Position numbers and translations under genes: made by a program
Origin: Bacteroidales bacterium
GTDB taxonomy: Bacteria; Bacteroidota; Bacteroidia; Bacteroidales; FEN-979
Assembly (NCBI GenBank): GCA_028706295.1
Contig: JAQWBQ010000032.1
Location: 1-38,133 of the forward strand
Length of the DNA: 38,133 bases
Direction of reading: 5' to 3'
Notes under the pieces: generated by a model
Told to the model about the DNA's origin: nothing
Seen by the model: only the letters and a program-made list of their open reading frames with translations
The model's database searches: none
Shown here: positions 10,437 through 37,342 of the stretch, piece by piece
Position numbering within the stretch: the stretch's first letter is position 1
Layout of the letters: each line of letters opens with the position of its first letter

Positions 10437-10453
10437 TTTAAAACGTTCGAGAT

Positions 10454-10576: not shown

Positions 10577-10595
10577 AAAAATTCATAATTTTTTT

Positions 10596-10665: not shown

Positions 10666-10696
10666 ATAAAGCCTCCGGAAATTAAAACTGACTTCT

Positions 10697-12604: not shown

Positions 12605-12669
12605 TGTGTAACCTGCAAGGAATTATGCGTCATTTTAACTAATTTAGCTGATTATTAAAAAACAAAACT

Positions 12670-18000: not shown

Positions 18001-18760
18001 AAACCCCGACTTTCTGGTTACGTGGGATACAATATCCGTAGCCGGAGTTGTACCGGGTTCTAAAGCACTTTGGATGAATTTCTTTGACTATCAGGCTGTG
18101 GACCGCCGGGATCAGATCATCAGTCCGGCTTTGAATTTCAGCGGATACGGAAACATCACCTTACATTTCAAACATGCCTATGAACAGAGAATCCGAAAGG
18201 ATTCACTCATCATCAGAGGATCGGATGATTGCGGCGCCACCTGGGTCCGGTTATGGGGCATGGGACCTGATGGCTCTCCGAATACTTTTGTGACCCATCC
18301 AAGTACCCTGACAGAATTTTTCCCACAATCGGCCGACGACTGGTGCGGAGGCAGCTATGGTACCGACTGCTATATAATTGATTTATCGGAATATAGTAAC
18401 AAAAACAATGTTCAACTCATGTTTGAATCCTATAATCGATATGGCAATAACCTGTTTATTAATGATATAGTTATTAACGGAACAGTGGGAACGGCTGAAT
18501 TGAAGAATAAGCAGCCTGATATTTCGCTATTCCCGAATCCGGCTTCAGGTAGCGTGACCGTTAATATTACCGGAGTAAAAGACCAGGTTATGATGGCAGT
18601 TTTCACACCCGAAGGGCAAATGGTTCTCCGGCAGACGCTTCAGGTGAAAGGAACGGCCATCTCGGAACAAATCGACTTATCAAATCTGAAACCAGGTATC
18701 TACTTCATTGAATTGACCGGACGTCAATTCAATGAAGTTAAAAAAATCATAATCTTTTAA
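15098..18760 (+). CDS. Secreted Asp-box (BNR/sortilin-like) and PKD protein with T9SS sorting domain
   Basis: The 1220-residue protein has a signal peptide (MKKILFFLSAMLFSHLVNAQ). A beta-propeller region (about 110-770) follows with repeated Asp-box motifs: STDGGISW, STDGGTNW, STDAGLTF, STNGGVTW, SNGGTTW. Two PKD domains (about 775-860 and 865-945) and a jelly-roll, MAM-like domain (about 950-1125, from LPFSETFVNGFG) come next. The C-terminal NPASGSVTVNI...LKPGIYFIEL...KKIIIF is a type A T9SS sorting signal, so the product should cross the outer membrane and be anchored or released. No catalytic residues for a glycosidase could be assigned; binding or adhesion is as likely. The M14 peptidase gene starts 2 nt after its stop. 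Confidence 0.88.
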   Translation: MKKILFFLSAMLFSHLVNAQTPSGQSVNDTANYPYWIEMMQDPTANFYQTQRAFQQYWKNRKITKGCGYKVFKRWEYMMQSRINPDGSRPDPASTMNAYHSYQEQTRSMSGNWVSIGPATIPDPGPAGYEGLGRLNVVAFHPTDPNKFYVGAPSGGLWQTADGGNTWVTHTDTMPTLGVSAIVVSYSNPDIILIGTGDRDAGDAPGLGVYKSTDGGISWVASKTGMNNKTVGRIIQHPVDPQIFLAATSGGVYRSTDGGTNWTLTQSGNFKDIHFKPNDAAIVYAAVNSDFYRSSNNGVTFTKITSGITAGQRGAIAVSQANPNYVYFLQSDNSSGFKCLYRSTDAGLTFTAQSTSPNILDWSCDGSGTGGQGWYDLAVAADPNNAEVLYVGGVDVWKSTNGGVTWTINAHWYGGCSVPAVHADCHFLGFSPVNGKLYAGNDGGCYSTSNGGTTWTDHTVGMTIGQIYKLGQAQTVKNKVINGFQDNGTYSITPTGWIAVGGGDGMECAYDYTNAAYSYHTIYYGNIYRKINNSNEVQIGGQGVNGITEEGAWVTPFCLSKFNHKTMFAGYKNIWRSNDVTTNPVVWTQISNSLAGSNSTNMSVVEHSSANENMLYVVRSDKKLFRTDDCLSSNPVWYDLTNFLPVSATPSDIKTIAEDENIVYMALNNKIYKSNDKGLTGTSIKANLPTIPINSIACYKNALDGLYIGTDAGVYYKDQGTNGWIAFSDGLPVNSKITEVEIYYDNDSVSQDVIRASSYGRGLWGSDMYHETPQADFTTAHTTIPTGCAIDFKDLSSGVPTDFQWYFQGGTPSTSNLKNPTGILYSAPGNYEVKQKVWNVYGADSVTKVNYITVSGTMLPEPDFTADRQVTCQNEVIHFIDKTLNCPISWNWQFQPSTVTFLDGTTFNSQNPVVLFNEPGPYDVQLTVYNAVGPGTVTKQDYIYQGGFTLPFSETFVNGFGERHWKVINPDFLVTWDTISVAGVVPGSKALWMNFFDYQAVDRRDQIISPALNFSGYGNITLHFKHAYEQRIRKDSLIIRGSDDCGATWVRLWGMGPDGSPNTFVTHPSTLTEFFPQSADDWCGGSYGTDCYIIDLSEYSNKNNVQLMFESYNRYGNNLFINDIVINGTVGTAELKNKQPDISLFPNPASGSVTVNITGVKDQVMMAVFTPEGQMVLRQTLQVKGTAISEQIDLSNLKPGIYFIELTGRQFNEVKKIIIF

Positions 18761-18762
18761 AA

Positions 18763-21261
18763 GTGAAAAAAGCTGTTTTGCTTTTTCTGTCATGGTCCAT
18801 GTCAATGTTGACTTTGGGCCAGGGTTGGCGCCCCGGCGAGATGGAACTCATCGCACAATTGAACAGTTCCGGTGATCTTTTACAGATTCAACGATTGACA
18901 AAGAATATTGAACCTGCCTCGGCTGATGGTAAGCTGTTTAGAATTTATCTGGTTCCCAAAGAGTACGAATTGTTCAGAAAATTGGATATCCGTTACCAGA
19001 TTACCATACCGGATCTCAATCTTCACTATCAACTTTTTTGGGATGACCAGGATAATCCATACGGATATTACACCTATGACCAGATTATTTCGATCATCGA
19101 CAGCCTTTCCTTGAATTTTCCAACCATTTGTAAGAAATATTTGCTGGGAACCTCTTCCGGCGGCCGTCAATTGTCGATTTTAAAGATCAGCGACAATGTT
19201 GCCATCGATGAACCGGAAGCCGAGATCATGTTCGACGGAGGAATTCATGGCGATGAAGTCGGCGGCCCCCAGAATATTATTCTTCTTGCGCGCGAATTAT
19301 GTCTGAATTACGGAATTAATCCGACTTATACCGACCTGATCAATACCCGTGAAATCTGGCTTTATCCGATGGTGAACCCCGATGGAAGGGTGGCAATGTC
19401 GCGTTACAACAGCTATGGAGTTGATATCAACAGGGATTGTGGTTATATGTGGAATGCCGAGGGACAAAGTACCGGCGCGTTTTCACAGATTGAAACGAAA
19501 ACACTTCGAAAAATAATTCTGGACAACCAATTTGTCGTTTATACCAACTATCACAGCGGAACCGAGATCCTTTCCTACCCGTGGAGCTATAGGTCAAGTT
19601 CGGCCCGGGATTACAACCTCTTTAACAGCCTTGGCAGTGTTTATTCCATCACTTCGGGTTATTCTTCGCTTCAGTATGGGCAAGGTTATAATGTCATGTA
19701 CGCCATTAACGGAAGTACGAAGGATTTCACCTATGGGTGTACGGGAAACATTGGCTGGTCCATCGAAATTTCAAATAATAAGCAGCCCCCTTCGTCGCAG
19801 ATCATGACCTTCTACAACAACAATAAACCGGCTATGATTGAAATGATAAGCCGGAGTAACTGGGGCATCTCAGGAATGATAACAGATTCCGCCACAGGTG
19901 AGCCTTTGCGTGCCTCAATATGGATCAATGATTATTATCCGGTTTATTCGGATCCTGAAGTTGGTGATTTTCATAAATATATTATTCCCGGAAACTATAC
20001 GGTAAAAATCAGGGTAAACGGATATAAAACCAAAACATTGACCAACATCACTGTTCCATTGACCGGATGCATCGAAGTAAATGCAGAACTGGTCCCTGAG
20101 CCAAAATGGTACGCGCACCAGGTGATCAGCTGTCATATACCCGGAAATAACTTCGGGGACCCCGGATTTACTCCGGGCGCGCTCGGGGCTCCTGATGGAA
20201 CACCTTATGCACTCGGACATCTTGGCTGGATTATCCTTGATATGCATGATACTTTATGCAATGGCGAAGGAAACGATTTCAAAGTAATTGAGTCCGGTTC
20301 CGCATCCAAGTCTTTTACCGTTTCCGGTAGTAACAGCATGGACGGGCCTTTCTATGTCATTGGAACGGGTAACGGTACAACTTCCTTCGATCTGTCTGCA
20401 TGCCCCCTCGATAAAGTCCGTTATCTGCGTATCGTCGATAATGGAACAGGAGCTATATCGGGTTCCGGAGCAGGATTTAACCTCGATGGGGTGGAAATGC
20501 TCACACCCCCTTTAATTGTTCGCTTTACCTCCGACTCCGACAGCATCTGTGCAGAAAATGCAATTCACTTTACAAACAATTGTTCAGGAAACCCAAACCA
20601 GTGGAATTGGTCTTTCCCTGGAGGGGTACCTTCCTCATCATCTTCTGAAATACCACCCGAAATTCACTACAATTTACCCGGAACCTATGATGTTTCACTT
20701 ACCATCTCAAACGGATTCACCTCCAGTTCACTTACAAAACAGGGATTTATCAAGGTTTTTGAATCACCGGTAGTTGAACTCGGTAAGGACACCGCGTTAT
20801 GTCCCTGGCAAAATATTACTCTCGACGCAGGAAATCCCGGTGCTACCTTTCTATGGTCGACCGGCGACACCAGTCAGACAATTCTGGTTGATTCAACTGG
20901 AATTGGTATCGGCTCGAAGATATACTGGGTCGATGTGAGTTTAAACCAGATCTGTGCCACCAGGGATTCCGTCAGGGTTACCTTTCAGATCTGCAGCAAT
21001 GTTCCAAAGTCCACAATCTTACCCGTTGTTCAAATTTACCCTAATCCTGCTACCGAGTACTTCACTGTGAAAACAACAGGACTTTCCGGATCAACCTGGA
21101 TGCTCTTTTCCCCCCTGGGTATTATGGTTCTAAATGGAACTATTGGTGATGACGAGGGAATAAATATCATATCAACAAATAATCTGAAACCGGGAACTTA
21201 CTTTTTAAAGATACAGAACAACATTTCTGTATTCTCTGGAAAGATACTGATTCACCGATAG
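18763..21261 (+). CDS. Secreted M14 zinc carboxypeptidase with PKD and T9SS sorting domain
   Basis: The 832-residue protein starts with GTG and a signal peptide (MKKAVLLFLSWSMSMLTLGQ). The M14 peptidase domain (about 95-365) has the zinc ligands H162 and E165 in GGIHGDEVGG, H264 in NYHSGTE, and the catalytic E335 in GWSIEIS. NPDGRVAMSRYNSYGVDINRD is the substrate-binding region. A carboxypeptidase-regulatory-like beta domain (about 367-445), a discoidin-like domain (about 450-590), a PKD domain (about 592-670) and an adhesin-type segment LGKDTALCPWQNITLDAG follow. The chain ends in a T9SS sorting domain with YPNPATEYFTV and LKPGTYFLKI. It should cut C-terminal residues from peptides outside the cell. 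Its tight spacing to the preceding gene suggests joint expression. Confidence 0.93.
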   Translation: MKKAVLLFLSWSMSMLTLGQGWRPGEMELIAQLNSSGDLLQIQRLTKNIEPASADGKLFRIYLVPKEYELFRKLDIRYQITIPDLNLHYQLFWDDQDNPYGYYTYDQIISIIDSLSLNFPTICKKYLLGTSSGGRQLSILKISDNVAIDEPEAEIMFDGGIHGDEVGGPQNIILLARELCLNYGINPTYTDLINTREIWLYPMVNPDGRVAMSRYNSYGVDINRDCGYMWNAEGQSTGAFSQIETKTLRKIILDNQFVVYTNYHSGTEILSYPWSYRSSSARDYNLFNSLGSVYSITSGYSSLQYGQGYNVMYAINGSTKDFTYGCTGNIGWSIEISNNKQPPSSQIMTFYNNNKPAMIEMISRSNWGISGMITDSATGEPLRASIWINDYYPVYSDPEVGDFHKYIIPGNYTVKIRVNGYKTKTLTNITVPLTGCIEVNAELVPEPKWYAHQVISCHIPGNNFGDPGFTPGALGAPDGTPYALGHLGWIILDMHDTLCNGEGNDFKVIESGSASKSFTVSGSNSMDGPFYVIGTGNGTTSFDLSACPLDKVRYLRIVDNGTGAISGSGAGFNLDGVEMLTPPLIVRFTSDSDSICAENAIHFTNNCSGNPNQWNWSFPGGVPSSSSSEIPPEIHYNLPGTYDVSLTISNGFTSSSLTKQGFIKVFESPVVELGKDTALCPWQNITLDAGNPGATFLWSTGDTSQTILVDSTGIGIGSKIYWVDVSLNQICATRDSVRVTFQICSNVPKSTILPVVQIYPNPATEYFTVKTTGLSGSTWMLFSPLGIMVLNGTIGDDEGINIISTNNLKPGTYFLKIQNNISVFSGKILIHR

Positions 21262-21271
21262 ATTGTTTACC

Positions 21272-21988
21272 ATGCAGCTTTTCTATACCTCTTCAAGCCA
21301 GCAACCCGGCGATGTACTCAACCTGAGTGAAGAAGAGTCGTGGCATTGTGCAAAGGTTTTAAGACTCCGGAAGGACGACTCGCTCTATCTGACCGAGGGA
21401 CAAGGATCTCTTTATCGTGCAAGAATATTGGATATTAATTCCAAATCCTGCCGGATCCTTATTGAACACCGTGACCCAAAAAGAGAAAAACCACCATCCC
21501 TTCATATTGCAATCGCACCGACGAAAAATTCAGAACGGTTCGAATGGTTTCTTGAAAAAGCTACAGAGATAGGCATCGGCTCAGTGACTCCGATCCTCTG
21601 CGACCATTCTGAACGGTTGGTTATTAAAAAGGATCGTCTTGAAAAAATTCTGATTGCAGCAATGAAACAATCGCAACGTCTCTGGTTACCCGTGTTAAAT
21701 GATGTCAGCAGGTTTACTGATTTGATTGCCGCACCATGCAGTAAGCAGCGCTACATTGCACATTGCGGCAACGATAATCCAAAAGCACTTTCCCATATTT
21801 ATATTCCACATTCGGAAGTTACTATTTTGATTGGCCCTGAAGGCGATTTCTCAGACCAGGAAATAACTCATGCGAAGCTGGCAGGTTTTGTACCTGTTAG
21901 TCTGGGTAACGCCCGATTACGTACCGAAACCGCTGGTATTGTTGCAGCCCATACCATTAATCTTCTTGACCAAATGAATTCAGGATGA
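21272..21988 (+). CDS. rsmE: 16S rRNA (uracil-1498-N3)-methyltransferase
   Basis: The 238-residue SPOUT-family enzyme methylates U1498 of 16S rRNA with S-adenosylmethionine. The knotted C-terminal domain shows LIGPEGDFSDQEI and VSLGNARLRTETAGIVA, which form the cofactor site. The N-terminal PUA-like part has SWHCAKVLRLRKDD. The ATG at 21272 (MQLFYTSS) is chosen; the frame also has a TTG at 21263, only 2 nt after the M14 stop, giving three extra residues. It overlaps the next gene by 4 nt. A ribosome enzyme in an operon with secreted proteins is probably only a matter of shared transcription. Confidence 0.94.
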   Translation: MQLFYTSSSQQPGDVLNLSEEESWHCAKVLRLRKDDSLYLTEGQGSLYRARILDINSKSCRILIEHRDPKREKPPSLHIAIAPTKNSERFEWFLEKATEIGIGSVTPILCDHSERLVIKKDRLEKILIAAMKQSQRLWLPVLNDVSRFTDLIAAPCSKQRYIAHCGNDNPKALSHIYIPHSEVTILIGPEGDFSDQEITHAKLAGFVPVSLGNARLRTETAGIVAAHTINLLDQMNSG

Positions 21989-22671
21989 ACAAAAGACCCG
22001 GGATTCTTATACTTTTCCTTCTGTGGTCCCTGAGAACGGTTCTTGGAGGCTTACCAGTTCCCTCCTACCAGATCGCACTGCTGAAATATAACGGAGGTGG
22101 TGACTGGTATGCAAATCCGACCTCCCTGCCCAATCTGGTCAGGTTTACCAATAAAATGTTAGGGACTAATATCAATGAGGAAATTGCTACAGTCGAAGCA
22201 GGAAGTTCTGAAATACTGAATTATCCCTTTGTTCACATGACCGGCCACGGAAATGTGATCTTTTCGGATCAGGAAGTGGAAAACCTGAGAACCTATTTGA
22301 TGGCAGGAGGATTCCTTCATATTGATGACAACTATGGGTTGGATGAATTCATCAGACCTCAGATAAAAAGATTATTCCCGGAAGTGGATTTGATTGAGTT
22401 ACCATTTGACCATCCGATCTATCATCAGAAATTCAATTTTCCCGCAGGATTGCCCAAGATTCACGAACATGACGGGAAAGCGCCCCGGGGATTTGGAATA
22501 ATTTACGATGGCAGGCTCGTCATCTTCTATAGTTATGAATGTGACCTGGGAGACGGATGGGAAGATCCAGCCGTCCACGGGGACCCGGAAACAACAAGAT
22601 TGAAAGCGCTTCAGATGGGATCAAATATCCTCTCATACATTTTCTCAACCGGATTGACAAATGGGAATTAG
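21985..22671 (+). CDS. DUF4159 domain protein with signal peptide
   Basis: The 228-residue protein has an N-terminal signal sequence (about 1-22) followed by one DUF4159 domain. This domain has a glutamine-amidotransferase-like (ThuA-type) look: ALLKYNGGGDW, then HMTGHGNVIFSDQEVENLRTY and GGFLHIDDNYG, ending with a pocket segment FDHPIYHQKF. It is predicted to act in the periplasm or outer envelope; the reaction is unknown. Bacteroidota often carry DUF4159 genes near MoxR/DUF58 clusters; a DUF58 gene is 10 kb away on the other strand, not adjacent. The start overlaps the rsmE stop by 4 nt (ATGA). Confidence 0.85.
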   Translation: MNKRPGILILFLLWSLRTVLGGLPVPSYQIALLKYNGGGDWYANPTSLPNLVRFTNKMLGTNINEEIATVEAGSSEILNYPFVHMTGHGNVIFSDQEVENLRTYLMAGGFLHIDDNYGLDEFIRPQIKRLFPEVDLIELPFDHPIYHQKFNFPAGLPKIHEHDGKAPRGFGIIYDGRLVIFYSYECDLGDGWEDPAVHGDPETTRLKALQMGSNILSYIFSTGLTNGN

Positions 22672-22688
22672 ATCAAACGGCTTTTTTA

Positions 22689-22696
22689 TATTTTTG
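22689..22696 (+). promoter_or_regulatory. Candidate -7 promoter element of the hdr operon
   Basis: TATTTTTG fits TAnnTTTG and lies 19 nt before the first hdr start codon at 22716, in the only gap (44 nt) on this stretch of the strand. No good -33 TTG is seen. It would allow the hdr genes to be expressed apart from rsmE and DUF4159. Confidence 0.5.
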
Positions 22697-22715
22697 AAAA
22701 TAGAAAACAAGATGA

Positions 22716-23429
22716 ATGGGTAGACTTTTCGAAAAACTCACACAAGATGTCAGGTTCATTGAAGGACTGAAGGCATGTTTAAACTGCGGAACCTGCACTG
22801 CCATTTGTCCGGCAGCAGAATTTTACGATTATCAGCCACGAAAAATCGTTGATATCTTACAAACCCATGAGGATGATAAGATTGAAGCACTTTTGAAAAG
22901 TGAAACAATATGGTACTGCGGCGAATGCATGTCGTGTGTAACGCGATGCCCCAGGGGAAATGCCCCCGGATTGCTGATCACAGCTTTAAGGTCACTGTCA
23001 CAGGAAATGGGATTCTTCATTGAGTCAGAAAAAGGGAGGCAACAACTGGCGATTAAACGAACTATCGGCGAGTGGATATTAAACTATGGATACTGTTTGT
23101 ATCCTTCCTTGATTCAACCAGAAATGCATCCGGAACAAGGTCCGGTCTGGGAGTGGGAACACCAAAACCTGAGTGAAATCATGGATCGCCTGGGAGCTAA
23201 CTATCAGAAAACAGGCCCGGGAATTCTGAGAAAAATACCCCGGGAAGATCTGGATGAGATAAAAAGGATCTTCGACGAAACTGGGGCAACCGAAAGATTT
23301 GCAAAAATTGAAGAGTTTTCGAAAAAAAAGGCACATGAAATGAATATGGATTTTGATGAAAGCATGGACAATGAATATTTTAAGCATATCTACAATAAGA
23401 CCGAAAAAGATCACATCCGCGAAAAATGA
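22716..23429 (+). CDS. HdrC-like 4Fe-4S dicluster protein with long C-terminal extension
   Basis: The 237-residue protein carries two ferredoxin-type cluster motifs: C21, C24, C27, C31 (CLNCGTCTAICP) and C68, C71, C74, C78 (CGECMSCVTRCP). This is the HdrC pattern of electron wires between HdrA and HdrB. Archaeal HdrC is around 185 residues; this one has a charged C-terminal tail (about 190-237) of unknown use. The stop overlaps hdrB by 4 nt. An ATG at 22712 is ruled out because it hits a stop after three codons. A different name such as QmoC N-terminal-like is possible; the cluster motifs are certain, the partner is inferred from the operon. Confidence 0.88.
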   Translation: MGRLFEKLTQDVRFIEGLKACLNCGTCTAICPAAEFYDYQPRKIVDILQTHEDDKIEALLKSETIWYCGECMSCVTRCPRGNAPGLLITALRSLSQEMGFFIESEKGRQQLAIKRTIGEWILNYGYCLYPSLIQPEMHPEQGPVWEWEHQNLSEIMDRLGANYQKTGPGILRKIPREDLDEIKRIFDETGATERFAKIEEFSKKKAHEMNMDFDESMDNEYFKHIYNKTEKDHIREK

Positions 23430-24505
23430 ATATTCAGGGTAAACGAAATATCTGGAAGGATTATCAGAAGGAAATCGCAACTGATCGCTATTTTTATGTT
23501 CGAAGCTGTGTAAGGCAAAACTTCTTTCCTGGTTCTGAAAAAGCATTTCTCAGGATATTGAAGGAGGAGTTATCCAGGGATGTTTATGAAAATGCCTCAC
23601 ATACAACTTGTTCCGGAATCGGGTATCATAGCGATGTCGTTCCGTTTGAAACCGCAATGACCATGGTCGCCCGCCAATTCGCTCTGATGACAGAATCGGG
23701 CTATGAAAACTTCACCACTTCCTGCATTACCTCCTTCGGACTTTACTCCGAAATTCTTGAAACCTGGCACCATTTCCCGGAGGTCGAAGAAAGGATTCGC
23801 GAACATTTGCTTCGGGCAACCGGAAGAACCTTTAAAAAACCAGCTAACCTTTCACATGCAAGCGATGTCATCTTTAAATTCAGGAAAGAGATTGCCGAAA
23901 AAGCAAAGCACCGTTTGATCAATCGGAAGACAGGAAATCCGCTGAAGGTAGTGGAACATATCGGATGTCATTATTCAAAGATGTTTCCCAGCAAGGGGGT
24001 CGGCGGAGCCGAATATCCCTATGTTCTTGTCGGTATGATTGAAGAATGGGGAGGCGAGGTCATTGATTATCCCGAAAGAAGACATTGTTGCGGGTTTGGA
24101 TTCCGACAATACCTGGTCAAGGCAAACCGGGGTTATTCATTGGCCTGTTCAAAAAAGAAATTCGAATCGATGGCCCCATATAAACCCGATTTCATTCTGA
24201 CTAACTGCCCGGGATGCCCGATGTTCCTCGACCGTTGGCAATACGCCCTGAGTGAGATGGAAGGAATAACCTATGGGGAAAACGGTTTTGGTATTCCGGT
24301 GCTTACATATGAAGAGCTTGCAGGACTTGTGCTGGGTTATGATCCCTGGGATCTTGGATTGCAGGTTCATCAGGTGACTGTTGACCCACTATTGGATAAA
24401 TTAGGTGTGGATTACGATCCTTCAGCGAAATTTACCGGAAAAAACGGAATCGATCTGGGAAAACCTGAACCTCCCACCTTCCTGAAATTCTATCAAAATG
24501 AATAA
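23426..24505 (+). CDS. HdrB-like CCG-domain protein with degenerate N-terminal cluster motif
   Basis: The 359-residue protein has two CCG-type domains. The second is complete: HIGCHYSK, then RRHCCGFGF, then TNCPGCPMF, the five-cysteine set that in archaeal HdrB holds a non-cubane 4Fe-4S cluster at the disulfide-reducing site. The first is incomplete: C28, then T61-C62 where Cys-Cys is expected, then C100 with S103 in place of the last cysteine. So three of five ligands remain. The residues after the last motif (about 275-359) form a tail not needed for clusters. It overlaps its neighbours by 4 and 8 nt. It probably contacts HdrC; the electron acceptor is unknown. Confidence 0.88.
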   Translation: MNIQGKRNIWKDYQKEIATDRYFYVRSCVRQNFFPGSEKAFLRILKEELSRDVYENASHTTCSGIGYHSDVVPFETAMTMVARQFALMTESGYENFTTSCITSFGLYSEILETWHHFPEVEERIREHLLRATGRTFKKPANLSHASDVIFKFRKEIAEKAKHRLINRKTGNPLKVVEHIGCHYSKMFPSKGVGGAEYPYVLVGMIEEWGGEVIDYPERRHCCGFGFRQYLVKANRGYSLACSKKKFESMAPYKPDFILTNCPGCPMFLDRWQYALSEMEGITYGENGFGIPVLTYEELAGLVLGYDPWDLGLQVHQVTVDPLLDKLGVDYDPSAKFTGKNGIDLGKPEPPTFLKFYQNE

Positions 24506-25523
24506 ATCGACAATCGTAGTTGGCGGAGGAATTGCCGGTATGACTGCTGCCGGAGAACTGTCACGACTTGGAGTTGAAGTCACACTGGTCGAACAAGAAC
24601 AAATATCAGGCGGGCACGCAGCATGTTGGGACCGGCTTTTCCCGACACGCAGACCTGCAGAAGAGGTAATCAGCTTTCTCCGGGAACAAACCGATTCCAA
24701 GGTTAACACATTTTCCGGTAGGCCGGTTACTGAAATCCTGCATCACGAAAGCATGTTCACCGCGACATTGTCCGACGGAACCATTTTACGTGGAGAGAGC
24801 CTGGTTCTTGCAACGGGATACGATCTCTTCGATGCCTCAAGAAAGGAAGAATACGGATATGGTATCTACGACAATGTGATTACCTCTGCCGAACTGGAGG
24901 GTTGGTTCAAAAATCATCAGCCAGTCAGAACCAAAAATGGCAGAATACCTTCTCGGGTCGCTTTCATACATTGTGTCGGATCCCGTGATGAAAAAGTCGG
25001 TAACCTTTATTGTTCCAAAGTGTGCTGTATTACCGGTGTCAAACAGGCGATTGAAGTTAAAGAAGCATTACCCGCGTGTGATGTCTATTCATTTTATATG
25101 GATCTTAGAATGTTCGATCGGAATTTCGAAGAACTTTATTTCGAAGCCCAAAAAAACTATGGAATCAATTTTATAAGGGGAAGACTGTCCGAATGCTCTG
25201 AAAATGAAGATCACACTCTGGTTGTCAAAACAGAAGATACACTGACCGGGAAACCAATGAAAATGATCGTTGATCTCGTGGTTTTATTGGTAGGATTTGT
25301 TCCAAGGTCACAAAATACTCAGATGCTTTTAAAACTTAAACTGATTACCGGTAACGATGGATTTCTGCAACCCGAGGATGAACACAATGGCGACAACCTG
25401 ACGCGAATCCCCGGATTGTTTATTACCGGTGCGGTAAAAGGTCCGGTGACGATCGCAAATGCCGTTGCAGATGCCCGGGCCACTGCCCTCCAGGTTTATT
25501 CATTTCTTCATTCCAACCGCTGA
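24498..25523 (+). CDS. Short HdrA/QmoA-like FAD protein
   Basis: The 341-residue flavoprotein starts with a dinucleotide-binding motif (VVGGGIAGMTAAGEL, residues 7-21) and LVEQE. A 4Fe-4S site is formed by C159, C172, C176 and C177 (CVGSR...YCSKVCC), diagnostic of HdrA/QmoA. The C-terminal GLFITGAVKGPVTIANAVAD completes the FAD site. It lacks the N-terminal extension and the ferredoxin insertions of the methanogen HdrA used in electron bifurcation, so it has one FAD and one cluster. It is therefore closer in size to QmoA. The start overlaps hdrB by 8 nt and the stop shares one base with the next gene. It should be the cytosolic flavin branch of the complex. Confidence 0.9.
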   Translation: MNKSTIVVGGGIAGMTAAGELSRLGVEVTLVEQEQISGGHAACWDRLFPTRRPAEEVISFLREQTDSKVNTFSGRPVTEILHHESMFTATLSDGTILRGESLVLATGYDLFDASRKEEYGYGIYDNVITSAELEGWFKNHQPVRTKNGRIPSRVAFIHCVGSRDEKVGNLYCSKVCCITGVKQAIEVKEALPACDVYSFYMDLRMFDRNFEELYFEAQKNYGINFIRGRLSECSENEDHTLVVKTEDTLTGKPMKMIVDLVVLLVGFVPRSQNTQMLLKLKLITGNDGFLQPEDEHNGDNLTRIPGLFITGAVKGPVTIANAVADARATALQVYSFLHSNR

Positions 25524-25852
25524 TGAAAGATTTCGGGTATCAGGCCCATCGGGACAATACCATCGATTTTGAAAAAAATGATTTCAGGATCGCCCGGTTT
25601 CTCCTCGAAAGAGAACCATCGCTGAATTTGTGCATCGGTTGTGGAAGTTGTACGGGAACCTGTTCAACCGGCCATTTTACTGAATTTAACATACGGAAAA
25701 TCCATACTTTGATAAAACGAGGTGACACAGAAATGGCAAGAAAACAAATCCGTCAGTGTATGTTTTGCGGCAAATGCCAGCTGATTTGTCCGAGAGGCAT
25801 AAACCTTCGTAATGTAATATTGGGTATTAACAGGGCCTTGGAAAAGATCTGA
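25523..25852 (+). CDS. Small HdrC-like 4Fe-4S dicluster protein
   Basis: The 109-residue protein holds two cluster motifs, CIGCGSCTGTC and CMFCGKCQLICP. The fourth cysteine of the first motif is followed by STG rather than Pro. It resembles the second HdrC or the Fe-S half of QmoC, and lies directly between the flavin subunit and the membrane subunit, overlapping each by 1 nt. It most likely wires HdrA to the membrane HdrD part. It is distinct from the first HdrC gene in the same operon, so the complex has two different dicluster wires. Confidence 0.87.
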   Translation: MKDFGYQAHRDNTIDFEKNDFRIARFLLEREPSLNLCIGCGSCTGTCSTGHFTEFNIRKIHTLIKRGDTEMARKQIRQCMFCGKCQLICPRGINLRNVILGINRALEKI

Positions 25853-27723
25853 TGATAAACTTCAACCTCTTCGTTCTGCCCTTCTCACTTGGACTCCTTT
25901 ACCTGATCCTGAAAATCGGAAAAGATTGGTACAAGTGGATAACAACGCTGTCGCCCGTCGATAAAGTCAAGTTTACGTCCGGTATCCGCAACCCGATCCA
26001 AATCCTCATCAGTTTAAAAGAGGTTTTCTTCGAAGTTTTGATCCATCGGAAGATGTGGAAGAGAAATCCATTGTTGGGATATATGCATATGAGCTTCGCG
26101 TTGGGCTGGTTCTTACTGATTGTCCTCGGAAATATCGAAAGTCGCTTCTACAGCGGGACACACCTGAATGCACCTTACTATCCTATTTTCCTCAAGTTTT
26201 TCATCCACGATAAACTGGTCATATTTTTCGAAGTTTATGCGGTACCCCGGTTTTTTCGCTTTATCATGGATCTCCTCCTTCTTTATATTCTTAGTGGTTT
26301 ATTGCTGGCCTTTCTGAAAAGAAAAAAATCGAAATGGTTCGGAATGAAACAGGTAACCCGCTACCAACTGACCGATCATGTAGCTCTGACCACCCTTTGG
26401 TTGATTTTTCCAATGCGGCTGCTCGCCGAAAGTTTCACGGCAGGCTATTATGGCAGCGGAGGAGGATTCATGACCCAACCACTGGGAAATTTTTTAACCT
26501 GGATCGTTCCTTTGCCAACTGATTTAGTGGCTTATACCATGTGGTGGGGCTATTCCCTGGTATTGGGTATTTTTTTTGTGACCCTCCCCTATTCCCGCTA
26601 CATGCATATACCAACCGAAGTGCTTCTGATCTTTTTCAGAAACTTCGGTATCAAGCCTAAAAAATGGTACTCCGGATATTCCGACACGGAAGTTCATTCC
26701 TGTTCAAGATGTGGTGTTTGCCTCGATATTTGTCAGATGAACCTTGCTGGAATCCATGATTCCCAGGCAGTATATTTTATCCGCGATGTACGTGATAAGT
26801 ATGTTTCCGAACAAATCTCCAGAAAATGCCTGGTATGTGGCCGCTGCCAAGAGGTATGCCCTGTGGGTATCCATTCCGATTCATTAAGATTGATCAAGCG
26901 CAGAGAACTCTCCTCCGGACAGGATGCTGATTATTCCTTTGTCTCGGTAAGTACTGTAAGAACTGCCGAAGTAGTGTATTTCTCAGGATGCATGTCGCAT
27001 CTCACGCCTTCTATAATCCGCTCTATGAAAGGGATTATGGAAGTCGCGGGGGTCTCTTACCTGCATCTTGATGAGAATCGTAGCATCTGCTGTGGGCGAC
27101 CATTAATGCTCGCTGGAAAAGACCGTCAGGCTCACGACCTGGTCGAGTTCAATAAAAAACTGATCAGAGATGCAAGAGCTGGAATCCTGGTCACCTCCTG
27201 TCCGATCTGTTACCGGGTTTTTAAAGAAGAATACAACCTCCCCATAAGAATTCAACATCACGCACAGTTTTTATTGGAACTGGTCCGTTCAGGCAAAATC
27301 CCGCTTCAAAGCATGCACCGCCGCATTATCTATCATGATCCTTGTGATCTCGGTCGCGGCTCCCATGTATATGAAGCGCCCAGGGAACTATTGGGTAAAT
27401 TTTCAGATCTGCTTATAAGTAAAGAGGAAAAAAATAACGCCCTTTGTTGCGGCGGAAGCCTTGGAATGTTCGAAGCGGATCATCAACAACGTGATCTCAT
27501 GACAAACGGAGCGCTCGATTCACTATTAACTTTTGGTCCGGAAATACTTGCTACAAGTTGTCCGTTATGCAAGAAAACATTTGGAAAAATGAACAGGGTC
27601 CCTGTAAAAGATTTAGCAGAACTGGTGTTTGAATCCATTCCTGATGGCAGGATCAGAAGCGCTTCTGGCTCCGTTTCCGTTCCGTTTCATCCAGAATTAT
27701 CTTCCGAAGCCGAATCGATTTAG
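25852..27723 (+). CDS. Membrane b-cytochrome/HdrD fusion (HdrED- or DsrMK-like)
   Basis: The 623-residue protein joins a NarI/HdrE-like membrane part (about 1-262, five predicted helices) to an HdrD-like iron-sulfur part. Candidate haem ligands are H65, H79, H176 and H252 (GYMHMSFALGW, DHVALTTLW, SRYMHIP). Two ferredoxin motifs follow (C284, C287, C290, C294 and C326, C329, C332, C336), then two complete CCG domains (C380, C413-C414, C450/C453 and C498, C532-C533, C570/C573). The parts are normally two proteins in HdrDE and DsrMK. It should exchange electrons with the menaquinone pool and pass them to, or take them from, the soluble Hdr subunits. The last 24 codons overlap the end of typA on the other strand; the C terminus may have extended after loss of an earlier stop. 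Confidence 0.9.
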   Translation: MINFNLFVLPFSLGLLYLILKIGKDWYKWITTLSPVDKVKFTSGIRNPIQILISLKEVFFEVLIHRKMWKRNPLLGYMHMSFALGWFLLIVLGNIESRFYSGTHLNAPYYPIFLKFFIHDKLVIFFEVYAVPRFFRFIMDLLLLYILSGLLLAFLKRKKSKWFGMKQVTRYQLTDHVALTTLWLIFPMRLLAESFTAGYYGSGGGFMTQPLGNFLTWIVPLPTDLVAYTMWWGYSLVLGIFFVTLPYSRYMHIPTEVLLIFFRNFGIKPKKWYSGYSDTEVHSCSRCGVCLDICQMNLAGIHDSQAVYFIRDVRDKYVSEQISRKCLVCGRCQEVCPVGIHSDSLRLIKRRELSSGQDADYSFVSVSTVRTAEVVYFSGCMSHLTPSIIRSMKGIMEVAGVSYLHLDENRSICCGRPLMLAGKDRQAHDLVEFNKKLIRDARAGILVTSCPICYRVFKEEYNLPIRIQHHAQFLLELVRSGKIPLQSMHRRIIYHDPCDLGRGSHVYEAPRELLGKFSDLLISKEEKNNALCCGGSLGMFEADHQQRDLMTNGALDSLLTFGPEILATSCPLCKKTFGKMNRVPVKDLAELVFESIPDGRIRSASGSVSVPFHPELSSEAESI

Positions 27724-29458
27724 GTGTCACCTCCACATATTCATCATCTTTGATGTATTCCATCGCCTCTTCCAGAGAGAATTTAACCGGTGGATATATG
27801 ACTGCTTTCTCATCAGAACCCGATGCCCGTACATTCGATAATTTTTTCGTCCGGTTCACATTGACAACGATATCATCACTCCGGGTACTTTCACCGATGA
27901 TCTGCCCGGTATAGACTTCCTCAAACGGGTCAATAAAAAAAATCCCCCTGTCCTGTAATTTATCCAGGGCATAAGTAATGGCAGTCCCTGTGTACATTGA
28001 AATCAGCGATCCATTATTTCTGCCCTGCATCTCCCCTTTCCAGGGTTCAAACGATTTGAAATGATGAGCCATTACGGCTTCCCCTTCCGTCGCCGTTAAT
28101 ACAGGATTACGAAGGCCGATTAATCCTCTGGCAGGTACAGTAAATTCAAGCACTGTACGATCCCGCTTATGTTCAATCTGTACTAAGTCCCCTTTCCTCC
28201 GACTGACCAATTCGATGACTTTCCCTGAAAAAGGCTCAGGAACCTGTACTTTCAACAATTCCACAGGCTCACATTTCTGTTCTTCGATCACCTTGGTGAT
28301 TATTTGCGGCTGACCAAGCTGAAATTCGTACCCCTCACGACGCATTGTCTCCACAAGAATGGCCAGGTGCAGAATTCCCCTGCCAAAGACCTGAAAGCGA
28401 TCCGGCGAATCCATCTCCTCCACCCTCAGCGCAAGGTTCTTCTCTGTCTCTTTGAACAGCCGTTCCCTTAAATGCCTTGAGGTGACATAACTGCCCTCCT
28501 TTCCTGCAAAAGGTGAATTATTGATCGTGAACTGCATACTCATGGTCGGTTCGTCGACATTGATGGGCGCCATTCCCTCTGGGAATTCAAAATCAGCAAT
28601 GGTATCCCCGATTTCAAAATTTTCAGGACCTAAAACCGCACATATCTCTCCTGCAGATACCTCCCATTTCACCTTCTCTTTTCCCAATCCTTCAAAAAGA
28701 TAAAGTTCTTTGACAATCGATTTTAGAATCGTGCCGTCATTTTTAACCAACGATACCGTCATTCCAGCCTTAATGGTCCCCCGGTTTATCCTTCCTACGG
28801 CGATCCTGCCAACATAGGATGAATAGTCAAGAGAGCTGATCTGTAACTGCAGAGAACCGGGACCACGGGCCGGAGGCGGAATATGCTCCACAATCTGATC
28901 CAGTAAATAACTGACATCCTGCGTTGGCTGCCTCCAGTCTTCCGACATCCATCCCAGTTTTGAGGAACCGAAAACAGTCGGAAAATTCAATTGGTCTTCA
29001 CTGGCGTCAAGACTGAACATCAAGTCAAACATGGCTTCCTGCACCTCGTCGGGGGCACAGTTGGCTTTATCTACTTTATTGATCACCACAATGGGCTTTT
29101 TCCCTAATTCCAAAGCTTTCTGAAGAACAAACCGTGTTTGAGGCATAGGCCCCTCGAATGCATCTACCAGAATTAACACGCCATCTGCCATATTCAGGAC
29201 ACGCTCAACCTCTCCGCCAAAATCAGAGTGACCAGGGGTATCTATTATATTGATCTTTACTCCCTTGTATCGGACCGATACATTTTTCGAAAGAATGGTA
29301 ATGCCCCTTTCACGCTCCAGATCATTGGAGTCAAGAATCAGATCGCCTACATTCTCATTTTCACGGAACAGCCTGACCTGGTGAAGAATCCGGTCAACTA
29401 ACGTGGTTTTGCCATGATCAACATGGGCAATAATTGCAATATTTCGGATATCATACAT
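27653..29458 (-). CDS. typA: Translational GTPase TypA/BipA
   Basis: The 601-residue GTPase binds the ribosome and aids assembly and stress responses. G-domain motifs are AHVDHGKTTLVD, DTPGHSDFGGEVERVL and NKVDKANC, followed by the EF-G-like domains and the C-terminal TypA domain ending with SIRLRKIILDETERKR. The start is set at MYDIRNIAIIAHVDHGKT. An in-frame ATG eight codons upstream (29482) overlaps the valS stop by 4 nt and could give a coupled start, but the extra residues are not family-like. The 3' end overlaps the opposing hdr gene by 71 bp. It is probably co-transcribed with valS. Confidence 0.95.
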   Translation of the reverse strand: MYDIRNIAIIAHVDHGKTTLVDRILHQVRLFRENENVGDLILDSNDLERERGITILSKNVSVRYKGVKINIIDTPGHSDFGGEVERVLNMADGVLILVDAFEGPMPQTRFVLQKALELGKKPIVVINKVDKANCAPDEVQEAMFDLMFSLDASEDQLNFPTVFGSSKLGWMSEDWRQPTQDVSYLLDQIVEHIPPPARGPGSLQLQISSLDYSSYVGRIAVGRINRGTIKAGMTVSLVKNDGTILKSIVKELYLFEGLGKEKVKWEVSAGEICAVLGPENFEIGDTIADFEFPEGMAPINVDEPTMSMQFTINNSPFAGKEGSYVTSRHLRERLFKETEKNLALRVEEMDSPDRFQVFGRGILHLAILVETMRREGYEFQLGQPQIITKVIEEQKCEPVELLKVQVPEPFSGKVIELVSRRKGDLVQIEHKRDRTVLEFTVPARGLIGLRNPVLTATEGEAVMAHHFKSFEPWKGEMQGRNNGSLISMYTGTAITYALDKLQDRGIFFIDPFEEVYTGQIIGESTRSDDIVVNVNRTKKLSNVRASGSDEKAVIYPPVKFSLEEAMEYIKDDEYVEVTPKSIRLRKIILDETERKRSQKRF

Positions 29459-29478
29459 GTTATACACCCCCGGAAAAA

Positions 29479-32121
29479 TCATCCTTTCTGACTGGTAATC
29501 CGTTCTTCGAGCACAGCAATCCTGGAGATGGCGTCCTGTTGCTTTTTGCGTTCCGCTTCCACAACCGCGACAGGGGCATTTTTAATAAAGCTTTCATTAT
29601 TAAGTTTCAGCATAACTTTCGACAGAAACCCACGTGTGTAAAGAAGTTCCTCTTCAATTTTAAGAATATCCTCCTCCGCGTTGATCTGATCACCCACAGG
29701 AATAAAAAATTCTGTGCTTCTCACAATGAAGGAAATACAGCCGGGGGATTTTACATCGATGTAAGAAATACTCTTCAGATTGCATAGTTTTCCGATGATC
29801 CCGTCGAAGGTAGTGTCAGCCTCTTCACCATGATTTTTCTTAATAAACAGCGCAATGGGCTCTTTAAAGGAAATATTCCTTTCCTTCCTGACATTACGGA
29901 TTGCAATAATCACCTCAGAAGCAAAAATGAATTGATCAATGATCCCCTGATTGAAAGGTTTAGCTTCAGGCTGTGGAGTAAGTAAAATCGATTCGCCTTC
30001 TTCACGTTCCTTGAGGATATGAAATATTTCCTCTGTAATAAATGGCATGAAAGGATGAAGCAGGCGAATCAATTGATCGAGAAATCCGGTCGCAGCCTCA
30101 TAGGATCTGCGATCAATGGGTTGCTGGTAAGCAGGTTTGATCATTTCAAGAAACCAGGAACAGTAATCATCCCAAATCAGTTTGTACGTCGTCATTAAGG
30201 CCTCTGACAAACGGTAATCGGAAAACTGGTTTTGAATGGTCTGTAACGAAGAATTGAAAACAGATGCAAACCATGCAATGGCAATCTTGTTTTCAGCGGG
30301 TTGATCGATTTCTTCAGAAACCTGCCATCCCCTTACCAACCGCATCGCATTCCATATTTTATTACAGAAATTCCTTCCCTGCTCTATGAGGCCATCATCA
30401 TAAAGGAGATCATTACCCGCGGGAGAACACAACAACATACCTACACGAATAGCATCCGCTCCGTTTCGGGCAATGAGATCCAGCGGTTCGGGAGAATTTC
30501 CAAGTGATTTCGACATCTTACGACCCAGCTTGTCCCGCACGATACCTGTAAAATACACATTCCTGAAAGGGATCTCTTTCCGGTATTCCCAGCCTGCCAT
30601 TATCATCCGTGCAACCCAGAAGAAAATGATCTCAGGTGCCGTGATCAGTTCGTTGGTCGGATAATAATACCGGATATCAGGATTGTCGGGATTTCTGATT
30701 CCATCGAATACCGAAATTGGCCATAACCAGCTTGAAAACCAGGTATCCAACACATCTTCATCCTGCTTTAAATCCTCAATTTTAACTTCTGACGTCTGAT
30801 TTTTAATTTTTAATTTCACCTGTTCAAAAGCCTCTTCCCTGCTCCTGGCAACTACAAATGTTCCATCAGGCAGATACCATGCTGGGATGCGATGCCCCCA
30901 CCATAACTGACGGGAAATGCACCAATCAGTGACATTCTCCATCCAGTGCCGGTACATGTTTTTATATTTCGCCGGATGAAACCGAATGGTATCGTTTTCA
31001 ACAAGATCCAATGCCGGTTTTGCCAACTCGTTCATTTTCAGGAACCATTGAATAGAAATCCGGGGTTCTATCACCTCTTCGGTACGTTCCGAATATCCGA
31101 CTTTGTTGGTATAATTTTCAATTTTTACAATATGACCCTGTTTCTCCAGTTCAACGGCTATTTTTTTTCGCACGGTAAACCGATCTTCCCCGACAAATAA
31201 CCGGGCTGCTTCACTCATGGTACCGTTTGCATTGAATGTATCAATAACCTCCAGCTGATGTTTGATCCCCAGCTTATAATCATTGATATCATGTGCCGGT
31301 GTCACTTTTAATGCTCCGGTTCCGAACTCCCGGTCGACATATTCATCGAAAATTACCGGGATTGGTCGGTTAATCAACGGAACCATTATCTTTTTCCCCT
31401 TGAGATGCCGGTACTTTTCATCCTCAGGATGTACACAAATTGCGGTATCTCCCAAAATAGTCTCAGGCCGGGTTGTGGCAATCGTGACCCATTCATCAGA
31501 AGTTCCCGCGATAAGATACCTTACATAATACAATTTAGAATTAACCTCCCTGTATACAACCTCCTCGTCCGATACGGCAGTCAGCGCTTTCGGATCCCAG
31601 TTTACCATTCTTACCCCACGGTAAATCAATCCTTTTTCGTAAAGATCGATGAAAACCTTAATAACCGAATCGTACAAACCATCATCCATCGTAAAACAGG
31701 TACGCTCCCAGTCGCATGAAGCACCCAGTTTTTTCAACTGATCCAGGATGATACCACCATGTTTGTGTTTCCATTCCCAGGCATGTAAAAGAAACTGATC
31801 GCGAGTCAGATCGGATTTCCTGATCCCGTCCTCTTTAAGCTTCGCAACAACCTTTGCTTCTGTTGCAATTGATGCATGATCGGTACCGGGCACCCAACAG
31901 GCGTTTTTACCTGCCATTCTGGCCCTGCGCATCATAACGTCCTGTATGGTGTTGTTGAGCATGTGTCCCATGTGCAAAACCCCGGTAACATTGGGAGGTG
32001 GAATCACAATACAATATGGCTCCCGGCTATCCGGTTCCGAATGAAAAAGTTTATTCTTCAGCCAGTAGGAGTACCATTTATCTTCGACCAATGCAGGATT
32101 GTATTTCGAAGCAATTTCCAT
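29479..32121 (-). CDS. valS: Valyl-tRNA synthetase
   Basis: The 880-residue class I synthetase charges tRNA-Val. The HIGH signature is HMGH at 50-53 (after PPPNVTGVL), and KMSKS is at 535-539. The editing domain lies between them, with the conserved [10 protein letters not shown] and [28 protein letters not shown] is intact. The C-terminal coiled coil (about 815-880) that clamps the tRNA is present. Around residues 436-448 the chain reads [13 protein letters not shown], encoded by AT-rich DNA that resembles a dispersed Bacteroidota repeat. It carries a few more residues than I recall for homologues at this point, without breaking the frame. Confidence 0.97.
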
Positions 32122-32140
32122 AAATTATTTTTTGGGAGTG

Positions 32141-32148
32141 CAAAGGTA
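32141..32148 (-). promoter_or_regulatory. Candidate -7 promoter element of valS-typA
   Basis: Read on the minus strand this is TACCTTTG, a full match to TAnnTTTG, 19 nt before the valS start, in the 53-nt gap after the DUF58 gene. The -33 position has only CTG. Confidence 0.5.
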
Positions 32149-32174
32149 ATAAAAATACACGGATGGATTCAGTT

Positions 32175-33110
32175 TCAGAACAGCTTACTCCGTTTAACGA
32201 GGTACGGTAATAGGACCTGTTCAAAACCAGCACGAATATCAACTTCTACCATATCAATATGGTACTGCCCGCATTTGATCTTCATTTCATTTTTGAACCA
32301 TTCAAGTTTTTCAATGTACCTTGAACGGACTTGTCCAGGTTGTACCCGTAACTGCCTGCCAGTCTCCAAATCGATAAACCGGTAAGGTCGCTCCTCGAAT
32401 TCAAAATTCAATTCCGTTCTCTTATCCACAACATGAAAAAGCACAACCTCATGCTTGTTGTGTTTCAGATGTTGAAGGGCCGCAAACAGTTCAGCAGGTT
32501 GGCTTATGCGTTCAAACATATCACTCAGGATGATCACCAGGGATCTCTGGTGAATCCGTTCTGCCAGTAAATGAATGGATTTTACCACTTCCGTCCCTTT
32601 CATCACTTCAGTTGAACGGGTTATCAAAAGTTTCTCGAGTTCAGTGAACAGGTACCTGTAATGCATCGAACTCGACTTTGACATGGTATGCAACTCGACC
32701 GAGTCTGAAAAAATGCTGATACCTGAAGCATCACGCTGACGTCGTAACAAATAGATCAGCACAGCGGCAATATACGTGGCAAAGGTAATTTTATTGGGGT
32801 TTTTCAGATCGGTTCTGTTCATGACTGGATACCCCATGGAGGAGGAGTTATCAATCAGAATCTGACATCTTAAGTTGGTCTCCTCCTCGTATCTTTTTGA
32901 GTACAACCGGTCAGTCCTCCCATAAAGCTTCCAATCAATCGATTTGATCGATTCACCGTTATTGTAAAGCCTGTGTTCGGCAAACTCGACACTGAACCCA
33001 TGAAAAGGACTTTTATGAAGGCCTGTGATGAAACCCTCCACCACCTGCCGTGCTAAAAACTCCAGTGAAGAAAACTGTTCCAGCCGATTCTGATCAATCA
33101 ATGCCGTCAC
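32175..33110 (-). CDS. DUF58 domain protein (von Willebrand A-like)
   Basis: The 311-residue cytosolic protein has the DUF58 signature NNGESIKSIDWKLYGRTDRL followed by YSKRYEEETN, and a von Willebrand A-like fold with the metal-site start ILIDNSSSM (D-x-S-x-S). No membrane segment is seen. In Bacteroidota, DUF58 genes usually sit after a moxR ATPase in the BatA-type aerotolerance cluster; here moxR is missing and the neighbours are trx and valS. A promoter-like pair (TTTTG and TATTTTTC, 21 nt apart, at 33147-33114 on the minus strand) sits so close to the start that the transcript would have almost no leader. That is a weak call. Confidence 0.88.
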   Translation of the reverse strand: MTALIDQNRLEQFSSLEFLARQVVEGFITGLHKSPFHGFSVEFAEHRLYNNGESIKSIDWKLYGRTDRLYSKRYEEETNLRCQILIDNSSSMGYPVMNRTDLKNPNKITFATYIAAVLIYLLRRQRDASGISIFSDSVELHTMSKSSSMHYRYLFTELEKLLITRSTEVMKGTEVVKSIHLLAERIHQRSLVIILSDMFERISQPAELFAALQHLKHNKHEVVLFHVVDKRTELNFEFEERPYRFIDLETGRQLRVQPGQVRSRYIEKLEWFKNEMKIKCGQYHIDMVEVDIRAGFEQVLLPYLVKRSKLF

Positions 33111-33180
33111 TTGGAAAAATAAGGGATCAGGAAATTAAAAACCAAAATCTCCTGAATGAATTTTAACCCGAATCAGGGTT

Positions 33181-33498
33181 TTAAATATACTTCTCAATTA
33201 ACGCTTTATACGATGCCTTCGGAACAGCTCCTACCTGCTTGTCCACAACCTGACCATTCTTAAAAAATAAAACGGTCGGGATGTTGCGTACACGGTACAT
33301 GGCGGTAGTGGTTGGATTTTCGTCAACATTCATCTCCCCCGCAACGATTCTACCTTCATATTCGGTAGCGAGTTCATGAATGATCGGCGATACCATCCTG
33401 CAAGGACCACACCACTCAGCCGATAGATCAACAACGGCCAGTTTCTCACTTTTTAAAACCTTTTCTTCAAAATTTGCATCGGTCAGTTTTTCAATCAT
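33181..33498 (-). CDS. trx: Thioredoxin
   Basis: The 105-residue cytosolic disulfide reductase shows the active site WCGPC at 29-33, the DENP motif (residues about 60-63), the cis-proline loop RNIPTVLFF and the C-terminal glycine-containing GAVPK. There is no signal peptide. It lies 70 nt upstream of the DUF58 gene and 196 nt downstream of dnaE on the same strand. In the dnaE-trx gap (33499-33694) I see no gene and no strong terminator. Thioredoxin is a natural partner for the Hdr-type complex 6 kb away, but nothing in the sequence ties them together. Confidence 0.96.
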   Translation of the reverse strand: MIEKLTDANFEEKVLKSEKLAVVDLSAEWCGPCRMVSPIIHELATEYEGRIVAGEMNVDENPTTTAMYRVRNIPTVLFFKNGQVVDKQVGAVPKASYKALIEKYI

Positions 33499-33694
33499 AT
33501 AGATATATCTTTAAATGTTTTTTAAGATGAATAATGAGGCACTCGTTGGTAAATCAATTACCCATCAACCAATTATTTAAGAGTAAAACCATGAAACTCA
33601 GAACCTAAAATTTTTCCTTGCGAATTTACGAAAAAATCATAATCGGATGAAATGCAGTCACGACAGAAAAACGGAAAAGAGAACAATAGTCAGA

Positions 33695-37192: not shown

Positions 37193-37221
37193 CGATTGAA
37201 AATCCTTCAAGTCTGAACAGG

Positions 37222-37295: not shown

Positions 37296-37327
37296 TTTGA
37301 TAATTGCGTGAAAAGCAGTTAAATTTG
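37296..37327 (+). promoter_or_regulatory. Promoter of the DUF2231 gene
   Basis: TTTG at 37296-37299 is followed after 20 nt by TAAATTTG (37320-37327), matching both Bacteroidota elements and the spacing. The ATG at 37343 lies 15 nt further. This rules out the upstream TTG at 37304 as start. Confidence 0.7.
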
Positions 37328-37342
37328 TTACAAAAAAATCAC

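Follow-up and report, generated by a model that had tools for sequence, protein, structure and literature searches.

The five-gene operon at positions 22716-27723 of a 38,133-nucleotide stretch of DNA from a member of the Bacteroidales (assembly GCA_028706295.1, contig JAQWBQ010000032.1; the whole stretch is referred to here as the window) probably specifies a single complex in the membrane, which would carry electrons between menaquinone and a sulfur compound, be it a thiol/disulfide or a persulfide, small or protein-bound. On the best reading of the evidence, the complex is a thiol- or persulfide:menaquinone oxidoreductase in which a core resembling the sulfur-oxidizing, heterodisulfide reductase-like sHdr system is joined to an EtfD-like quinone module, and thus a variant within the heterodisulfide reductase (Hdr) superfamily. 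The genes are conserved together, their motif cysteines and histidines are retained, HdrA is kin to sHdrA, the membrane subunit has an EtfD-like fold, and most genomes carrying the operon also carry quinone-pathway genes. From these features one can predict that the subunits assemble into a single complex, which cofactors it would hold, in what order electrons would move through it, and the kind of substrate and direction of the reaction. Encoded in about one third of the sampled genomes of its order, this conserved and probably respiratory complex would join parts of two known machines. No description of the operon was recognized in the open-licence literature searched (titles, abstracts, and passages), a body of text that leaves subscription papers mostly outside.

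Gene set and conserved cysteines

Five open reading frames on the plus strand, HdrC1-HdrB-HdrA-HdrC2-ED, the last being a fusion of a b-type cytochrome with HdrD, were confirmed in the window (Table 1). Both this order and the overlaps of 4, 8, 1, and 1 nt at successive junctions, pointed out in a first-pass annotation of the DNA, were borne out. Domain searches with Pfam and NCBIfam models detected the ferredoxin pairs of HdrC1 and HdrC2, one CCG domain in HdrB, and Pyr_redox_2, the flavin adenine dinucleotide (FAD) domain, in HdrA; in the membrane subunit, the N-terminal membrane region is followed by the ferredoxin pair and then by the two CCG domains.

Table 1. Genes of the operon (window coordinates) and loci of the most widely recurring neighbour pair
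Feature	Position or loci	Strand	Description
HdrC1 (sHdrC1-like)	22716..23429	+	237 aa; two [4Fe-4S] ferredoxin motifs; extra invariant C127
HdrB (sHdrB1-like)	23426..24505	+	359 aa; three-Cys N-terminal site, complete C-terminal CCG site
Short HdrA (sHdrA-like)	24498..25523	+	341 aa; FAD domain; four-Cys motif C159, C172, C176, C177
HdrC2	25523..25852	+	109 aa; two [4Fe-4S] ferredoxin motifs
Membrane subunit ED	25852..27723	+	623 aa; membrane region at the N-terminus, then a ferredoxin pair and two complete CCG domains
Histidine kinase/LuxR-type pair	L071, L084, L100, L106, L111, L120, L208, L211, L213, L216		neighbour clustering

All cysteines of cluster-type motifs are invariant in the aligned relatives, which number 51-55 proteins per subunit. 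The four motif cysteines of HdrA are kept in 55/55 proteins and the eight of HdrC2 in 53/53; in HdrC1, eight motif cysteines and C127 are kept in 51/51, a count that includes the window protein and a near-copy of it at locus L039. C127, invariant as it is, is yet replaced by glutamine in both sHdrC1 references. The motif cysteines of HdrB are likewise retained in 53/53 proteins. Its N-terminal site has three cysteines only (C28, C62, and C100), and its C-terminal CCG site is complete (C181, C221, C222, C261, and C264). The N-terminal substitutions S/T-C-S/T and C-x-T-S are common to the window HdrB and to the sHdrB1 proteins encoded at two sHdr loci of type II. The C-terminal C261 is cysteine in 53/53 operon proteins and aspartate in both sHdrB1 references.

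Kinship to known Hdr systems

HdrA matches PDB chain 6tjr_A over residues 3-335 (E 1.3e-60), a chain that we take to be sHdrA of Hyphomicrobium, although the molecule name in the search output reads otherwise; its match to methanogen HdrA is mostly confined to the second part of the protein. In a maximum-likelihood tree built from 53 rows chosen from 100 (with 19 of the 54 order relatives, near-duplicate references omitted, and some long branches), the operon HdrA proteins form one clade (99/93) that is sister to three sHdrA references (97/84). They stand apart from QmoA/B and from long HdrA, which branch elsewhere in the tree under labels assigned from length and context. A minimal HdrA class, A0, is mentioned for sulfur oxidizers in a passage of PMC12054007, and the window HdrA fits this class by size. 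The soluble half had been described as HdrABC-like in an annotation that did not name sHdr; the sister relationship to sHdrA and the sHdrB1-type motif of HdrB argue for kinship with the latter system and against a blend of methanogen HdrABC and Qmo.

The operon shares with the sHdr-LbpA systems of both types the C1-B1-A order (in the window and at 79 of the 91 loci considered below), the minimal HdrA, and the N-terminal motif of HdrB. According to a passage of PMC11582611, type I is characterized by C2 plus B2, and type II by a fused B3 plus etfAB in one cluster; LbpA, a lipoate-binding, GcvH-like protein, is called "inevitably associated" with sHdr in the abstract of PMC6067878. In contrast, the operon has neither LbpA nor etfAB, B2, or fused B3 beside it, has a separate HdrC2 and a membrane subunit, and retains a complete C-terminal CCG site in HdrB. 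Two reference loci of the same phylum (L122 and L123, in genomes G005 and G087) do represent sHdr clusters of type II and include an LbpA-like gene. Named by reading their open reading frames against the definitions in that passage of PMC11582611, they contain C1, B1, A, fused B3, EtfB, EtfA, a protein like EMO (ETF:menaquinone oxidoreductase, i.e., EtfD), and LbpA-like, DsrE-like, and thioredoxin-like proteins.

With EtfD/EMO, the operon has in common the combination of cytochrome, ferredoxin, and CCG domains in one chain, for which EtfD entry 9ojn is the best PDB fold match. The membrane subunit differs in that no ETF genes lie beside the operon, both CCG motifs are complete, and the gene sits in an operon with an Hdr core. 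Methanogen HdrABC and HdrDE share the subunit types, and the AlphaFold model of HdrB (pLDDT 84.6, a predicted confidence score) finds its best match in methanogen HdrB, 5odc_B; the short HdrA without extra ferredoxin domains and the trimmed N-terminal site of HdrB set the operon apart. QmoABC likewise employs HdrA-type flavoproteins that pass electrons to or from quinone. Unlike QmoABC, the operon has a single HdrA, which belongs to another clade, and includes HdrB and HdrD; scans of 17 further proteins of the window brought up no apr gene. It also differs from FlxABCD-HdrABC, since FlpD and Flx genes are missing from the operon. Because the operon lacks the LbpA, B2/B3, and etfAB genes of sHdr as well as the etf linkage of EtfD, it is placed within the Hdr superfamily as a variant of a new kind.

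Membrane subunit and menaquinone genes

A structural model of the membrane subunit, computed from 34 sequences (pLDDT 90.1), displays five long N-terminal helices, where a simple analysis of hydropathy gave four membrane segments. The best PDB fold match is EtfD of M. smegmatis, 9ojn (E 2.7e-20, query TM-score, TMq, 0.65, root-mean-square deviation 9.1), in a comparison whose references did not include HdrDE. This half had earlier been described as HdrED-like. His65, His79, and His252 are invariant, together with the motif cysteines, in 52/52 proteins, which would suffice to bind one haem of the b type or more. The two CCG motifs are likewise complete throughout these 52 proteins, as would also be the case for methanogen HdrD; the EMO-like protein of L122, about 21% identical to the membrane subunit, has a degenerate N-terminal CCG motif.

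MenA was found in 132 and MqnA/D in 124 of 295 genomes of the same order. At least one of these menaquinone markers is present in 85/91 carriers of the operon vs 167/204 other genomes (Fisher p 0.012, uncorrected for kinship); in the genome that contains the window, MqnA/D gave matches and MenA none. The Hdr-like complex envisaged in the first-pass annotation is supported, and its link to quinone is probable.

Distribution and gene order among relatives

A search of the 295 genomes with HdrA returned matches in 107 at E <= 1e-45. In 16 of these, only a longer or different HdrA was found, and they were excluded from the carriers; the remaining 91, belonging to 48 family codes, have the short HdrA at E 4.9e-69 or better (G627 was counted although its short HdrA is cut by a contig end). 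The suggestion of a widespread module thus stands for this order, within which alone the spread has been shown. The five genes lie in line as C1-B-A-C2-ED at 79 of the 91 carrier loci and in 45 of the 48 family codes; with this recurrence and the near full-length match of HdrA to 6tjr_A, the gene set goes far beyond what chance would give. Among the other 12, two loci of family f136 keep all five genes in the order C1-C2-ED-B-A, and three genomes of f57 have B-A and C2-ED at separate sites, and in two of these genomes C1 clearly adjoins C2-ED; five loci end at contig ends, and in G483 and G633 neither B nor C1 was found beside A. Junction gaps vary widely among the 50 loci at which all five genes were found, and overlap at every junction is not general. 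HdrB is the best conserved subunit, with 61-78% identity to the window protein among whole copies from 53 order relatives; the corresponding figure for HdrA is 37-56%.

In a phylum-wide sample of 395 genomes, 77 matched HdrA at E <= 1e-30. The only short HdrA proteins there were that of the window's own genome and two from sHdr loci (G005 and G087, 35-36% identity); the other full-length matches lay in longer frames. A scan of contigs with one operon protein returned a single near-identical locus, L039 (SACF01000006.1, 74456-91478), in which 17 kb are 97% colinear with window positions 16499-33520. This record is titled Alphaproteobacteria bacterium and is probably a mislabelled metagenome-assembled genome of Bacteroidota.

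Proposed mechanism and alternative explanations

In the mechanism proposed here, a thiol or persulfide would be oxidized at HdrB, between the trimmed three-cysteine cluster site and the complete non-cubane site. Electrons would then pass from HdrB through HdrC1 to the FAD and the cluster of HdrA and on to HdrC2, from where they may reach menaquinone by way of the ferredoxin and the two CCG clusters of the membrane subunit and a b haem. Thiol oxidation feeding the quinone pool would be the downhill direction: with menaquinone at -74 mV, the value given in the abstract of PMC10734219, the oxidation of ordinary dithiols should be favourable on the thiol potentials that we assume. Since the additional ferredoxin domains that mark long HdrA are missing from the short form, ferredoxin, named as a second possible substrate in the first-pass annotation, is unlikely to serve as such; bifurcation is unlikely for the same reason.

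Several points weigh against a thiol- or persulfide:menaquinone oxidoreductase with an sHdr-like core. A tree of HdrB, in which three groups are separated by very long branches, leaves the kinship of this subunit undecided, and scored against methanogen HdrB it comes out nearer (113.7 bits) than sHdrB1 does (56.7 bits). The operon is not linked to any substrate gene. The association with quinone genes is modest, and 6/91 carriers lack a match to either marker under the thresholds applied. Finally, HdrB-type subunits elsewhere serve as mere electron carriers, so that thiol chemistry in this complex is only a prediction.

The position of HdrA as sister to sHdrA and the sHdrB1-like N-terminal site of HdrB would also suit a third, LbpA-independent branch of sHdr plugged into menaquinone, which we consider unlikely. 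Such a system would constitute an anaerobic Bacteroidota route from sulfane sulfur to sulfite, delivering electrons straight to menaquinone rather than to EtfAB and, in some lineages, providing sulfite partly for the synthesis of cysteate and sulfonolipids; if this were true, an energy-yielding respiratory reaction would supply a membrane-lipid building block. Cysteate synthase uses sulfite. Cysteate is the compound from which sulfonolipid enzymes start, according to passages of PMC11211663 and PMC9304779. In six genomes (G402, G615, G435, G500, G576, and G474), the distance between HdrA and a cysteate-synthase-like gene is 2.9-7.9 kb, i.e., within 8 kb in 6 of 48 gene-bearing carriers and 4 of 30 families, where 0.23 genomes would be expected for an assumed genome size of 3.3 Mb (Poisson p 2e-7, by family 8e-5). 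These p-values are uncorrected for the choice of gene and are optimistic, because the proximity was noticed after all neighbours had been viewed. Two of the six, G402 and G615 of one family, exceed the cysteate synthase cut-off, and this type alone gives 2 genomes vs 0.16 expected (p 0.01). The other four genes reach about 107-120 bits, but in the three that were scanned, threonine-synthase models score higher, all below cut-off. These four loci also have an SPT-like acyltransferase, whole or fragmentary, nearby, and three of them an SDR gene, although none of the SPT-like and SDR proteins scanned there passes a cut-off. The proximity is a weak hint of a link to sulfite. At the level of whole genomes, cysteate synthase exceeds the cut-off in 80/295, with two further fragments and 55 weaker matches; genes over cut-off together with the two fragments occur in 33/91 carriers vs 49/204 others (p 0.035), and the weaker type in 15/91 vs 40/204 (p 0.63). 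Since 43/91 carriers have neither type, cysteate synthase was rejected as an obligatory partner, and co-occurrence lends the sulfite route little strength. The route is further disfavoured by the absence of LbpA from the surroundings of the window operon, by the seven carriers without a PF01597 match described below, and by the aspartate that both sHdrB1 references have in place of C261.

Somewhat less likely still is an operon that merely conducts electrons, in which HdrC2 would feed the membrane subunit and a soluble dehydrogenase or flavoprotein would feed HdrA or HdrB, without any thiol chemistry, as ETF does for EtfD. EtfD-type proteins are partners of ETF, and the EtfD-like fold of the membrane subunit would be in keeping with such a role. 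However, the same genome has its etfBA genes on a different contig, where they adjoin an EtfD-like pair distinct from the operon and an acyl-CoA dehydrogenase (names assigned by eye); the membrane subunit has two complete CCG motifs, unlike the L122 EMO-like protein with its degenerate one; and no dehydrogenase recurs beside the operon. An improbable alternative would have a soluble FlxABCD-HdrABC and the operon complex exchange a dithiol that the former makes and the latter re-oxidizes with menaquinone. The window's genome does have HdrC, HdrB, long HdrA, FlpD, and, by eye, Flx-like genes on contig C86, but the FlpD marker (PF02662) was found in 16/40 carriers vs 9/40 non-carriers (p 0.15), each set having been picked by hand, at one genome per family code, from the 91 carriers and 204 others. 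Flx-HdrABC was consequently rejected as a general partner. That the operon is a plain Qmo variant, or a methanogen-type HdrABC with HdrDE, is highly improbable: the domain types are held in common and the HdrB score cited above is compatible with it, but QmoA/B and long HdrA fall into other clades, and the matching curated HdrA, HdrB, HdrC, QmoC, and DsrK models all score far below their cut-offs. Homologues that always sit beside dsr or apr genes would have pointed to such a variant; neighbour clustering detected no recurring apr or dsr family.

Neighbouring genes and candidate partners

Of the 94 loci whose flanking genes were clustered, all from the 91 carriers, three are second-half loci; contig ends make the flanks differ in length. 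At most 9 of the 48 family codes share any one neighbour family, and the absence of an obvious partner enzyme, remarked upon for the window, extends to all 91 carriers, which share no constant partner gene. Most widespread among the recurring neighbours is a pair made up of a histidine kinase and a LuxR-type response regulator, found upstream at 10/94 loci in 9 families and on the operon strand in 9 of the 10; the pair was dropped as evidence on the substrate. A cluster seen in 8 families, which overlaps the operon on the other strand, is a shadow reading frame, and an SDR cluster from 6 families occupies scattered positions. Among the 94 loci, no dehydrogenase recurs.

A query with a lipoyl protein found GcvH-like (H-protein) matches in 84/91 carriers vs 178/204 other genomes (p 0.24). 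The remaining seven carriers gave no match, also when searched with PF01597, and the lipoyl H-protein was therefore rejected as an obligatory partner. An sHdr-like core can accordingly exist in genomes without a detectable H-protein-type lipoyl carrier, and calling sHdr sulfur oxidation from homology of HdrA or HdrB alone could mislabel many Bacteroidota genomes. Three PF01597 proteins, of which two are fusions, are encoded in the genome of the window; in view of these and of the 84 carriers with a match, a lipoyl-bound substrate is conceivable there.

One fusion, on contig C43, joins a DGC domain to a GcvH-type lipoyl domain and lies with two more DGC proteins (Pfam) in a cluster (L134, about 5762-12736) that, by eye, also contains an ArsR-like regulator, thioredoxin-like, CcdA-like, rhodanese-like, and HdrA-N-terminus-like proteins, a ferredoxin, and an ACR3-like permease. 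Whole DGC-lipoyl fusions occur, among the matches listed, in 5/295 genomes, four of which are carriers, and the fusion was rejected as a general partner on that count. On contig C102 of the same genome (L131, 340-2037), a periplasmic-binding-protein-like domain, below cut-off, is fused to a GcvH-type domain and adjoins a sensor-kinase-like gene.

The same genome encodes a second Hdr system on contig C86 (L125, 4515-11403), with HdrC-HdrB-long HdrA-FlpD and the Flx-like genes. On contig C83 (L127, 5960-11642), etfB-etfA are accompanied by genes for a cytochrome b-ferredoxin protein, for an HdrD-like protein separate from it, and for an acyl-CoA dehydrogenase-like enzyme, which together represent a split EtfD system. 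As these etfBA genes have EtfD-like genes of their own, the genome's ETF was rejected as the operon's partner.

Other features of the window

The earlier statement that no dsr, apr, mcr, flx, or hydrogenase gene lies nearby agrees with the Pfam scan, which detected no such domain in the 17 other window proteins, a set that leaves out the frames at 29479-32121 (ValS-like by eye), 33695-37210, and 37304-37771 and small overlapping ones. Scanning for promoters and terminators gave counts no higher than in shuffled controls. The 3′ end of the membrane-subunit gene shares 71 nt (27653-27723) with a convergent TypA/BipA gene. Por_Secre_tail sorting domains, a mark of Bacteroidota, were found by Pfam on window proteins; one such tail is carried by a 1220-aa Sortilin-Vps10/PKD protein (15098-18757), which adjoins an M14 carboxypeptidase with a like tail.

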